From Clostridia bacterium (lineage in GTDB: Bacteria; Bacillota; Clostridia; Christensenellales; CAG-138), in assembly GCA_017614315.1 (NCBI GenBank), contig JAGACA010000021.1:1-63256 (forward strand): a stretch of 63,256 bases of DNA, read 5' to 3'. Shown piece by piece: positions 55,178 through 63,046 of this stretch. The notes under the pieces are model-generated. The model saw only the letters and a program-made list of their open reading frames with translations. It searched no databases and was not told the origin of the DNA. The translations under genes and the position numbers were made by a program. Each line of letters starts with the position of its first letter. Position 1 is the first letter of the stretch.

Positions 55178-55468
55178 TCATTTCCCGCCGGGTTCCGTTA
55201 CCGACTCGGCGACGAGCGTGAGCTCGTCGTTCTTCACGCGAAGGAATCCGCCCGACGCGATCAGTCTCAATACACATTTCCCGTCTTCGCACGCGGTAAC
55301 GGGCGAGCTTTCCGAAAGCGCGATAACGGCCTCGATGTGGCCGCGGCGTATGCCGACGCCGCCGCCTTCGCCGCCCAGGCCGTCACGCGCGGAAACGGTG
55401 ACCGAATCGCATGGGACGCGGAGCTTTTCCCCCTCGGGGGTTATAATTATAAGCGTCATCGCGCTCAT
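55178..55468 (-). CDS. atpC: ATP synthase epsilon subunit, short form
   Basis: F1 central-stalk subunit that links gamma to the c ring. Only 96 residues, against about 130-140 usually. The N-terminal beta-sandwich is recognisable (ITPEGEKL, GIRRGHIEAVIAL, VKNDELTLVAE). The usual C-terminal helical hairpin, which restrains ATP hydrolysis in many bacteria, is missing. A Gly-rich insertion (GLGGEGGGVG) replaces the loop before the GH motif. It begins one base after the atpD stop and is the last gene of the operon. Confidence 0.92.
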   Translation of the reverse strand: MSAMTLIIITPEGEKLRVPCDSVTVSARDGLGGEGGGVGIRRGHIEAVIALSESSPVTACEDGKCVLRLIASGGFLRVKNDELTLVAESVTEPGGK

Positions 55469-55469
55469 A

Positions 55470-57675
<2,206 letters not shown>

Positions 57676-57688
<13 letters not shown>

Positions 57689-59907
57689 GGGATCTCCTCC
57701 TTATAGCGGGCAAGCGCTCCGCGGACGGAAGACTCGAGCTTTTCGTCCATCCTTTCGCCCGTTTTCAGAGCGGCGGCCAGTTCTTCGCAGTTGGTCTCGA
57801 AATAATCGTAAAGCCCGCGCTCGAAGCTCTCCATCGCGCTTGCGGGAACGCCCTCGGCATAACCCTCCGAAACGGCGAATATTATCAGCGCCTGCTTCCA
57901 GTCGGGAAGCGGCTCGTACCGCTTTTGGCGGAGGGCGCGCATCATCTTTTCGCCGCGCTCGAGCACCATGCCGGAGCTTCTGTCAAGCTCCGAACCGAAC
58001 TGTGCGAAGGACGCGAGCTCGCGGTACTGGGCAAGCTCCATGCGAAGCTTGCCGGAGACCTGCTTCAAAAGCTTCGTCTGCGCCGCCGAGCCCACGCGGG
58101 AAACGGATAGTCCCACGTTGACCGCCGGGCGCTGACCCTCGTTGAACAGGTCGCTTTCGAGGAATATCTGACCGTCGGTGATGGATATGACGTTCGTCGG
58201 GATATAGGCGGAGATGTCGCCCGCCTGCGTTTCGATTATGGGCAGCGCGGTCACGGAGCCGCCGCCCGCCTCGGGCGAAAGCCTTGCCGCGCGTTCGAGC
58301 AGCCTTGAATGCAGATAGAACACGTCGCCCGGGTACGCCTCGCGGCCGGAGGGCCGGTGCAGGAGCAGCGACAGCTCGCGGTACGCGACCGCGTGCTTCG
58401 AAAGATCGTCGTAAACGATCAGGCAGTCCATGCCCTTGTACATGAAGTATTCGCTCATCGCCGCGCCGGCAAAGGGGGCTATGTACTGCATGGAAGCGGA
58501 GCTCGAAGCGGGCGCGGAGACGATGGTCGTGTACTCCATCGCGCCGTGCTTTTCGAGCTTGTCGCGGATCTCGGCCACGGTGGAATCCTTCTGACCTATC
58601 GCGACGTATATGCAGGGAACGTTCCTGCCCTTCTGATTGATTATCGCGTCTATCGCGAGCGCGGATTTGCCCGTGCTGCGGTCGCCGATAATCAGCTCGC
58701 GCTGACCGCGGCCGATCGGGACGAGCGCGTCTATCGCCTTTATGCCCGTGTGCATCGGCGTCGATACCGAGCGCCTGTCGGGTATGCCCGCGGCCTTGAA
58801 CTCGATGGGTCGGCGCTCGCGTGTCCTGATCCTGTCGCCGCCGTCTATCGCACGGCCGAGAGGATCGACGACCCTGCCCAAAAGCTCCTCGCCCACGGGC
58901 ACGCTCGCGATCCTGCCCACGCGGCGGACGCGGCTCAGCGTTTCGATCTGCTCGAATCTGCCGAACACCACGCATCCTATGCGCTCCGGCTCTATGTCGA
59001 GTATCATTCCGCGCTCGCCGCACTCGAACTCGATGACCTCGCCGTACATTATGTCGGCAAGACCGTCAAGACGGCAGATGCCGTCCGAAACGGACAGCAC
59101 GCGGCCGAGCTGGAATTCGTCTATCCGGGGCGATTCCTCGCTTATGCCCGCCATTATGTCGGCAAATATCCCGTCCGCGTCGACGCCGTCGGACATGGGA
59201 CGTTTTAAGAGGTTTCGCTCGAGGTGGTAGAGCATGTTTTTTACGGTGCAGTCGTAGACCGTATCGCCGATCCTCAGCCGCAGCCCGCCGATGAGCTCGG
59301 GATCGGTCTTGACCCAGAAGCTCGGCCTTCCGTCGACCTCGTCGAGCAGGGACTCGGCGCGCTTCTTCAGCTTATCGACGATCTCGTCCGCAAGCGGATA
59401 CGCGCTCGAAAGCGTGACGTACAGCACGTCGTGATGCATCAGATAGCACATATCGCCGGGGGTCAGCCTGATCCTTTCGAGTATGCTGTCGGCGATGCCG
59501 GCCTCTTTTTTGCGTATGAGCGAAGCCTGCGGCTCGCCGGAAAGATGCTCCGCAAGCCTTGCGCAGAGCGCCTTTACCGCCTTCTCCCTGGAAAGCAGCA
59601 TCGCCTCGCGCCTCTGAGCGGAGATGCGCGCGTCGGACGAAGCGAGGAGCTGTTTTTTCTTCTGCTCCGTGCTTTCGGCGATCCGCATTTGCTCGCCGGC
59701 GAAGGCTTCGGGAGCTTCCTCCGGCTCTGCCGGGGCTTCGGTATAGGCCGGATCCTCCGCGGGAGCGAGCGCGGCTTCCGCCTCATCGAGCTCGGCGGCG
59801 ATGCGCTCGCGCCTTGACGAGAACTTCTTTTTAAGCGGCTTATATCCCACTATAAGAAGGATGACGGCGAGGAGAGCGAAATTGATAAGCGCGTATACGT
59901 AATACAT
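57676..59907 (-). CDS. atpA: Fused ATP synthase subunit: b-type anchor, delta C-terminal domain and alpha
   Basis: A single 743-codon frame. Residues 3-22 form a transmembrane helix, followed by YKPLKKKFSSRRERI as in b/b' subunits. An Ala/Glu/Pro-rich stretch (about 40-70) leads to a helical region (about 70-145). Residues 155-235 match the delta (OSCP) C-terminal domain, with VTLSSAYPL, DPELIGGLRLRIGD and the final LYHLERNLL. Met238 onward is a complete 506-residue alpha with P-loop GDRSTGKSA, IYVAIGQKDSTV and VGLSVSRVGSAAQ. No stop, frameshift or clear Shine-Dalgarno marks Met238. No separate atpH exists. Mycobacteria have a b-delta fusion; joining alpha as well is new to me. Confidence 0.93.
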
Positions 59908-60335
59908 CAGCCCTCACCGCCCTTCGTCAGCTTTTCGGTAAAGGCTTCCGTCATCCTGTCCATGAGTGAAGCGAGCCTTTCGTCGGCAAGCTTTCCGGCT
60001 TTTCCGACCTCGGCAAAGGCGGCGTTTTCACGCGCGGCAAGCTCCTCGGCGTAATCCTTCAGCTCCTGCTTCGCGTTCTCCTCGGCGGCGGCGATGATCC
60101 TCCGGGCTTCGTCCTCCGCGGCTCTTTGGCTCGCGGCGCGCGCCTCAAGCGCCCGTGCGCGGCTCTCCTCAAGGGACTGCTCCCTCTCCATTGCCCTTAT
60201 GTGCGCGCGGGCGACCTTGTCCTTTCGTTCGTCCATATGCCTCAAAACGGGCTTTATCAAAAGACCGTTCAGTACGAGCACGAACAGCATGAACAGGATT
60301 ATCGTCCAGATTATGTCGGGGAGGTTTATGTTCAT
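59907..60335 (-). CDS. atpF: ATP synthase subunit b
   Basis: Peripheral-stalk subunit; 142 residues. An N-terminal membrane helix (about 8-27) is followed by KPVLRHMDERKDKV and a long charged helix rich in Ala, Glu and Arg to the end. Its first residues match other bacterial b subunits. The next gene carries a second b-like anchor, so the stalk may be a b/b' heterodimer. It overlaps that gene by one base. Confidence 0.95.
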   Translation of the reverse strand: MNINLPDIIWTIILFMLFVLVLNGLLIKPVLRHMDERKDKVARAHIRAMEREQSLEESRARALEARAASQRAAEDEARRIIAAAEENAKQELKDYAEELAARENAAFAEVGKAGKLADERLASLMDRMTEAFTEKLTKGGEG

Positions 60336-60338
60336 CTA

Positions 60339-61244
<906 letters not shown>

Positions 61245-61252
<8 letters not shown>

Positions 61253-61538
61253 CGGAGCTTTCCTTTCCCGTTCCGCGTATCAGAAGCAGTGTGAATACGA
61301 TCAGTCCTGCGGTCGCGCCGAGCGCGCCGGCGATCATGAAAACGGTCAGATCGAGCTTCAAGGCCCGTCCTATAAAATAGATCGCCGCAAGGCAGCCCCC
61401 GGCGACCAGCGTCCTCAAAGGCAGTATCATATAGACGCCGGACTTTTTGCCGAGCGCCGATCGCGTGATAAGATAATTGACGAATTCCGCCAGCGCGCCT
61501 CCCGAAAAGGCGATCACGGCGGGCAGGATCTCTTTCAC
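61245..61538 (-). CDS. Small membrane protein at the head of the atp operon, AtpI-like
   Basis: A 97-residue protein with three to four hydrophobic helices. Size, topology and position ahead of atpB match ATP synthase subunit I (AtpI/UncI), a c-ring assembly or ion factor, but sequence identity is too weak to be sure. The start is GTG 61538 with AGAGG 8 bases upstream. Confidence 0.7.
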
Positions 61539-61687: not shown

Positions 61688-63046
61688 ATGACGATCGAGA
61701 TATCTGCGGTCAGTCTGATCAACATTATTCTGCTTGCGGCTGGCATAGGAGTCTGCATCCTGGGCTTCCTTCACATCAAAATGGCGTCCGAGGTGCAGAG
61801 CGATTTCCGGTACGCCTTTGTCGCCGTGTTCATTTTGCTGACCGTTTTCATGGCTTCCCACATCGCGAGAAGCATACTTGACGGCACCCCGGGAGCAGCG
61901 GCGGGAGCGATCCTCCGTATACTTGCTTTTACCGGGATATTTGCGGCCGGCATGGTCGCGTTTGTGATATTCTTACTTTTCATATTTCTCGAGAAGCGTA
62001 AGAATGTCAGAAAAACGCTGATAATCATGCTGTGCCTGCTTTTCTCGGTTAATCTCGCGCTTCTGATCTTCGGAAGCGTATCGGGCGCGTATTACAGCTT
62101 CGGCGCGGAGAATACATTCACCCGCGGCCCGCTGTACCCCGTAATTTTCGCCGTTCCGCTCATACTGACAGCGGTCAACATGGTCATTCTCGCCCGATAC
62201 GGCAAGCACATCACCCCGCGCCTCGTGCGAGCCTTCTGGTTCTTCTTTATCGCGGCCGCCGCCGCGATGCCGATCCAGTGCCTCACAAACGGGATACAGT
62301 ACACGGTCGTTGCGGCGGTGCTGGGCTCGGCGACCATGTACTTTGTCCTGCTCAAGGAGCAGAGGGACGTGTTCAAACACAATATCCGGTCTATCGAGCG
62401 GCTGCAGGACGGGCTGATACTCGTCATGGCGGACCTGGTCGAGAGCCGCGACAAATGCACCGGCGATCACGTCCGCAAGACTGCGGAGTACACGCGGATC
62501 ATCATGGAGCAGATGAGGAAGGACTGCTCGTATCCCGACGAACTGACCGACGAGTTCATCGAAGACGTGGTTCGTTCCGCGCCGCTTCACGACGTCGGGA
62601 AGATACAGGTCTCCGATGCAATCTTAAACAAACCGGGAAGGCTGACCCCGGAGGAGTTCGAGGAGATAAAGAGCCATACTACCGCGGGAAGGGACATCCT
62701 CACCGAAGCCATAGACATGGTCTCCGAGGAGAGATCCGGATATCTCCTCGAGGCGAGGAACCTCGCATACTGTCACCACGAAAAATGGAACGGCACGGGC
62801 TATCCGCAGGGGCTCGCGGGCGAAAAAATACCGCTTTCCGCCCGGATCATGGCTGTCGCGGACGTGTTCGACGCGCTCGTCTCCAAGCGCAGCTACAAAG
62901 AAGGGCTCCCGATCGAAAAAGCGACGGAGATCATACGCGAGGGTATCGGGACGCATTTCGACCCGCTTGTCGCGGAGGCTTTTCTGAAAGCGGGAGCCGA
63001 GGTGCGCGCGGTGGCCTTATCCCACGAGAAGAAAGCCGCCGGATGA
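61688..63046 (+). CDS. Membrane HD-GYP phosphodiesterase with seven- to eight-helix N-terminal region
   Basis: A 452-residue predicted cyclic-dinucleotide phosphodiesterase. Residues 1-225 hold seven or eight transmembrane helices, similar in layout to 7TM histidine-kinase sensor regions, with no large extracytoplasmic domain. The HD-GYP domain (about 240-440) has His301-Asp302 in LHDVGK and GYP at 371-373 in HHEKWNGTGYP. It shares the CTGDH(V/I)(R/K)KT and ILNKPGRLT stretches with the copy at 17.9 kb. Shine-Dalgarno GGGGGTG lies 6 bases before the ATG. Confidence 0.93.
   Translation: MTIEISAVSLINIILLAAGIGVCILGFLHIKMASEVQSDFRYAFVAVFILLTVFMASHIARSILDGTPGAAAGAILRILAFTGIFAAGMVAFVIFLLFIFLEKRKNVRKTLIIMLCLLFSVNLALLIFGSVSGAYYSFGAENTFTRGPLYPVIFAVPLILTAVNMVILARYGKHITPRLVRAFWFFFIAAAAAMPIQCLTNGIQYTVVAAVLGSATMYFVLLKEQRDVFKHNIRSIERLQDGLILVMADLVESRDKCTGDHVRKTAEYTRIIMEQMRKDCSYPDELTDEFIEDVVRSAPLHDVGKIQVSDAILNKPGRLTPEEFEEIKSHTTAGRDILTEAIDMVSEERSGYLLEARNLAYCHHEKWNGTGYPQGLAGEKIPLSARIMAVADVFDALVSKRSYKEGLPIEKATEIIREGIGTHFDPLVAEAFLKAGAEVRAVALSHEKKAAG

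Follow-up and report, generated by a model that had tools for sequence, protein, structure and literature searches.

The textbook F-type ATP synthase has one stalk and one a-subunit. V-ATPases have three stalks, the N-type ATPase is not known to have a separate delta gene, and the mycobacterial b-delta protein retains the N-terminal domain of delta. That the one-stalk, one-a design is not obligatory was demonstrated by engineering of the Bacillus PS3 enzyme, in which a delta subunit without its N-terminal domain was fused to alpha, giving complexes with as many as three stalks and a-subunits, the mean being about two, and an H+/ATP ratio of 5.8 versus 3.0 (Ueno et al. 2025, PMC12229609). Every stalk seen in the engineered enzyme carried an a-subunit, pumping activity was lowered, and the share of triple-stalk particles in cryo-EM was very low, which the authors explained by stalks being lost on the grid (PMC12229609). 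The same study predicted natural multi-stalk enzymes and named natural delta-alpha fusions, such as that of Acidaminococcus fermentans and similar UniProt entries (PMC12229609). We found no description of a b-delta-alpha fusion protein in the open-licence PMC literature searched, and the expression 'b-delta-alpha' in the accessible part of PMC5709465 probably denotes a gene order. Here we describe such a protein, encoded on a 63,256-nucleotide stretch of DNA from a Clostridia bacterium (contig JAGACA010000021.1; the whole analyzed stretch is referred to below as the window), whose genome of 1.71 Mb is 90.66% complete.

The fused gene and its operon

Positions 57676..59907 on the minus strand encode a b-type anchor, the C-terminal domain of delta and alpha in one uninterrupted frame of 743 codons plus a stop. 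The frame lies at the coordinates given in the original prediction and starts with ATG, and the joining of the three parts in a single frame is essentially certain. The chain opens with a membrane helix and the beginning of a b-type stalk (residues 2-46; 59770..59904), predicted by AF2 as one helix and recognized by NCBIfam B models below their cut-offs and, marginally, by Pfam ATP-synt_B (PF00430, residues 4-111, 29.3 bits against a cut-off of 28), a model that reaches an E value of 0.01 in 9 of 16 triple-fusion members. A P/E/A-rich linker follows (residues 47-66; 59710..59769), which is present after residue 46 in 20 of 20 aligned genomes, varies in length among them and is disordered in the model (pLDDT below 50 at residues 52-59). 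Stalk helices at residues 67-123, 127-133 and 135-145 (together residues 67-145; 59473..59709) lead to the delta portion (residues 150-235; 59203..59460), where OSCP (PF00213) matches residues 156-233 with 43.8 bits against a cut-off of 22.3, covering only profile positions 97-172 of 172; of the two domains of OSCP, the fusion thus lacks the N-terminal one. The modeled C-terminal domain superimposes on residues 114-188 of bovine OSCP with an rmsd of 1.6 (6ziq_S) or 1.7 (6yy0_S) over 75 residues. Residues 236-262 (59122..59202) form the delta-alpha junction, which includes the N-terminal helix of alpha (244-257) and is of equal length in 18 of 20 genomes, and residues 263-743 (57679..59121) are F1 alpha, covered by ATP-synt_ab_N, ATP-synt_ab and ATP-synt_ab_C over residues 268-732 and by TIGR00962 over residues 251-737 (721.8 bits, cut-off 484.45). 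A full-length alpha beginning at Met238 had been proposed, but the start is not conserved: of the 20 genomes, 2 have ATG at this codon and a third has TTG. The N-terminal 236 residues adopt a confident AF2 fold (mean pLDDT 87.5), and the whole fusion, modeled from a 16-row alignment, has a mean pLDDT of 58.4 with a poor alpha core.

The fusion lies in a complete F-type ATP synthase operon (55178-61538, minus strand) that begins with a small membrane protein (61245..61538) named AtpI-like from its position, without a Pfam or NCBIfam match; a relative occupies the same position in the other triple-fusion operons whose locus extends that far. Next come subunit a (60590..61252), which contains the stretch RLFGN, subunit c (60339..60569) and a separate b-type subunit of 142 aa (59907..60335) that scores highest with B' models, below their cut-off, and whose stop shares one base with the start of the fusion. 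Given this separate gene, the fused b-type anchor of the original prediction is a second b-type chain and not the only b of the operon. Downstream of the fusion, gamma (56858..57688) has a GTG start and overlaps the end of the fused gene, and is followed by beta (55470..56861) and an epsilon that consists of the N-terminal sandwich only (55178..55468); a, c, gamma, beta and epsilon were all assigned by Pfam. Divergent to the operon, a 452-aa protein is encoded at 61688-63046 on the plus strand, with a C-terminal part recognized by eye as HD-GYP-like.

The absence of atpH from the otherwise complete operon was confirmed: there is no separate delta gene in it, and the fusion provides the sole OSCP match in the 90.66% complete genome. 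The same genome yielded no second F-type alpha; its other alpha-like matches are F-type beta and two frames, 459 and 622 aa long, which from their size look like V/A-type subunits. It also encodes an Rnf/Nqr-type membrane protein (PF03116, 346.8 bits), making an ion gradient plausible.

Distribution and relatives of the fusion

A search of the family with the N-terminal 238 residues found the open frame, 736-791 codons from stop to stop and free of internal stops, in 13 of 103 genomes including the window's. These carriers comprise 11 of the 13 genomes of the genus, again counting the window's, and two further genomes, G001 and G016. Four other family matches are not triple fusions, two having a stop between b and delta and two representing the b part only. 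A scan of named genomes returned 16 loci, of which 15 carry the triple fusion (L023-L037); all 15 are from Clostridia-type metagenome-assembled genomes, one of them labeled Christensenella sp., and 8 are labeled rumen or omasum. Eight of the 15 contigs were already among the family carriers, so that the union is 20 different genomes, window included, with the identical in-frame fusion; in two of them (L028, L037) the contig ends within alpha, and four were aligned from short loci (L008, L010, L013, L014) whose frames were closed as L118, L119, L116 and L117. In one genome (G079) the single TGA listed for the frame is, by its coordinates, the terminal stop. At an E value of 1e-12, the N-terminal profile matched 6 genomes in a sample of 396 from the order and a single one, the window itself, in a sample of 391 from the class.

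Far from all having separate atpH and atpA genes at this place, relatives in the genus carry the fused form: 11 of 13 genomes contain exactly one F-type alpha, always within the 736-791 codon frame. The search of related Clostridia thus upholds the expectation of a conserved fusion, and the triple fusion is narrow in range yet fixed where present. The remaining two members, G086 (94% complete) and G089 (61%), have no F-type alpha at E 1e-50 and no OSCP match, and the enzyme may therefore be dispensable in the genus; each shows only a weaker alpha-like match that looks V/A-type. Outside the genus, the sole F-type alpha found in G001 is fused, and G016 harbors both a triple-fusion operon (L117, contig C17) and a canonical F-type operon (L076, contig C29; delta frame 180, alpha frame 495).

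We inspected 75 loci, chosen non-randomly (60 picked by hand and 15 from the scan of named genomes): 34 encode an anchorless fusion of the delta C-terminal domain with alpha, 19 the triple fusion, 19 a free mini-delta and 3 a canonical delta. Delta-alpha fusions are spread over 12 or more families of the order, and the mini-delta genes (e.g., L077, L078, L120 and L122) encode the C-terminal domain only, in 71-136 codons next to a separate alpha. Two loci, L111 (G340, 685 codons; matches at 27-81 and 120-170) and L129 (G331, 684 codons; 30-84 and 120-170), have two tandem delta C-terminal domains ahead of alpha. Frames of 679 codons with an OSCP match at 35-172, such as those of G479, G513, G566 and G653 among the class matches listed, are possibly a nearly full delta fused to alpha; by the argument of Ueno et al., one F1 should not have room for three copies of such a protein.

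For alpha we built a tree of 72 rows, the window added, which was confined to the order and rooted at the midpoint, with no outgroup from outside the order and with the truncated L028, L037 and L098 and the split alpha of L079 (two frames) left out. In this tree the triple fusions make up a single clade (100/100), next to which stands a clade of six delta-alpha rows (98/92); delta-alpha and mini-delta forms intermingle, the delta-alpha state having changed at least 10 times. In the simplest order of events, delta would first have lost its N-terminal domain, alpha would have been attached next, and b last. When the profiles of the fused and the separate b were compared, only 38 columns aligned (probability 88.7); a duplication of the neighboring b gene is one possible origin of the fused b.

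Epsilon lacks its C-terminal domain in the window and in the 16 triple-fusion loci measured, unlike in 28 of 29 delta-alpha relatives; the median number of residues past the N-domain match is 7 in triple-fusion (16 loci), 54 in delta-alpha (29), 55 in mini-delta (19) and 5 in canonical loci (3). The motifs RL(F/Y)GN in a and EAL(T/S)IY in c are kept by 19 of 19 triple-fusion loci. The c subunits of the clade are chloroplast-like, and together with the shortened epsilon they make a sideways transfer of the operon possible.

How many chains, stalks and a-subunits

The original prediction had pointed out that three fused copies would bring three anchors and three deltas into each complex. This question of stoichiometry is a real one, and the engineered enzyme, with its up to three stalks, indicates that such an arrangement is physically possible (PMC12229609). 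Because F1 takes three alphas and the window's genome shows no other, each complex would contain three fused chains, each a single polypeptide combining a b-type anchor and stalk strand, a connector from b to F1 (the delta C-terminal domain) and a non-catalytic alpha. The N-terminal domain of delta normally occupies the threefold axis and restricts the enzyme to a single stalk; with this domain gone, three connectors could fit. Each fused strand would be joined by one copy of the separate b', giving three b-b' stalks, and since each stalk could hold an a-subunit, up to three a might face one c-ring. Several ions per c-subunit step would then drive each ATP, and with more ions spent per ATP a smaller gradient would be needed for synthesis.

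We favor, with modest confidence, this reading of three fused chains, each with a separate b', forming a three-stalk ATP synthase with up to three a-subunits and more ions per ATP. Judged by parts, three stalks per enzyme are likely, and several a-subunits with a raised ion/ATP ratio are plausible; we infer three intact copies, b-b' pairing, several a-subunits and the energetic effect. The more far-reaching proposal of a natural, obligate three-stalk enzyme, in which every alpha is tied to its own membrane strand and up to three a-subunits permit ATP synthesis at weak gradients, is tentative.

Three chains might also assemble around one true stalk with b' and a, the other two anchors being idle tethers. 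Each operon has a single a gene, as expected if only one a is bound, although the copy number of a in the complex is not fixed by gene count, and the linker at residues 47-66, which from the model could be a cut site or the source of a slack tether, could leave spare anchors loose. In the engineered enzyme, too, the mean was about two stalks and few particles had three; its observed stalks, however, always bore an a-subunit (PMC12229609), and the three connectors are equivalent. We consider an enzyme with two idle anchors possible but rather doubtful.

Alternatively, the chain could be made whole and cleaved afterwards, with the disordered linker or the junction as the likeliest site, leaving each complex only a single anchor or connector. 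The variable P/E/A-rich linker of all 20 genomes, with its low model confidence, would offer a site, yet cleavage there leaves three connectors anyway. A cut at the junction sits poorly with its near-constant length and with the codon positions of its differences: over ten pairs of 43-96% identity, junction differences at codon positions 1, 2 and 3 number 130, 97 and 188, a third-position excess milder than that of alpha (415, 268 and 1525). Cleavage to a single anchor or connector is, in our judgment, improbable.

Internal initiation had been offered as another way out, in which a start near the junction would yield a mix of fused and free alpha. In 13 of 20 genomes the N-terminal helix of alpha does contain an in-frame ATG, at aligned residue 251 or 252 and a few times preceded by AGGA or GGAGG; the other 7 lack it, and none of the in-frame starts between residues 215 and 274 is common to all 20. 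Met287 is ATG in 20 of 20 genomes, but initiation there would cut into the conserved beta-barrel domain of alpha (268-331). Ribosome binding was scored as the pairing energy with the anti-Shine-Dalgarno end for the best in-frame ATG or GTG of each stretch. At the junction of the triple fusions the median was -4.8 (19 loci, without the window) versus a background inside alpha of -4.3 (182 windows), and at that of the anchorless delta-alpha fusions it was -2.7 (34 loci), below their background of -4.2 (338 windows). Starts of neighboring genes had medians of -6.4 to -9.5 (67-75 loci each, all states pooled), and the alpha genes that stand free in mini-delta operons had a median of -7.0 at their starts (19 loci); the fusion's own start, at -5.5 in 19 triple-fusion loci, is weaker than most, which limits the power of this test. 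With no conserved start at the junction and a binding score at background, internal initiation of a free alpha appears unlikely, and we give a mixture of fused and free alpha very little weight.

Lastly, the relatives are metagenome-assembled or draft genomes, but an assembly error or broken gene is refuted by a frame that runs open through the junction in 20 genomes, with no stop or frameshift near 59196, and by the TIGR00962 score of the alpha part, leaving this explanation a negligible probability.

If the three-stalk reading is true, the enzyme could make ATP at gradients on which ordinary ones fail. The carriers are bacteria partly known from animal rumens, and three supporting stalks in place of one could allow a weak energy source to power their ATP synthesis. 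In the window's genus the multi-stalk design appears to be built into the genome, since every F-type alpha found there comes with a connector and an anchor. As a naturally occurring case fixed in the genes, the genus lets one ask whether enzymes with several stalks and several a-subunits exist and whether they sustain cells at low ion-motive force.

Comparison with known systems

Mycobacterial b-delta (e.g., 7nkd, 7jg5) is the best fold match of the N-terminal part of the fusion and likewise has a b-type helix linked to the C-terminal domain of delta; the model bears less resemblance to V-ATPase stalk subunits and flagellar FliH. Alpha is a separate gene in mycobacteria and part of the chain in the window, where the delta N-terminal domain is absent; the accessible part of PMC5709465 places a separate b and alpha beside b-delta. 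The idea that the window takes the mycobacterial arrangement one step further is not supported, given the missing delta domain, a PRK13428 score of 33.9 bits against a cut-off of 328, and the delta-alpha kin in the alpha tree. Identity with the N-type ATPase was likewise rejected, its b model TIGR03321 scoring 32.1 against 224.7, in a weak match over nearly all 246 model positions, and its alpha model TIGR03324 578.5 against 750.5.

The adjoining delta-alpha clade makes the delta-alpha fusion of Ueno et al. 2025 the closer kin. As described there, the Acidaminococcus fermentans protein is, like the fusion in the window, a delta without its N-terminal domain joined to alpha, and no b anchor in that chain is mentioned (PMC12229609). 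The engineered PS3 protein (PDB 9jc1) shares the missing N-terminal domain, the C-terminal domain in frame with alpha and a junction of near-equal length: residues 168-721 of the natural fusion align with residues 10-560 of 9jc1_I, interrupted by a single-residue gap where the linker was designed. Both also go with an epsilon without its C-terminal domain, removed by design in PS3. The gene features of the multi-stalk type, namely no delta N-terminal domain, a delta C-terminal domain in the alpha frame and no separate alpha, are all found, G016 with its second, canonical operon being the exception to the last. The two differ in that b is separate and homodimeric in the engineered enzyme, whereas the natural fusion has a b-type anchor in the chain and a separate b'-like b. 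The delta-alpha half is thus already known, and the b anchor in the same chain is the addition made by the window's clade.
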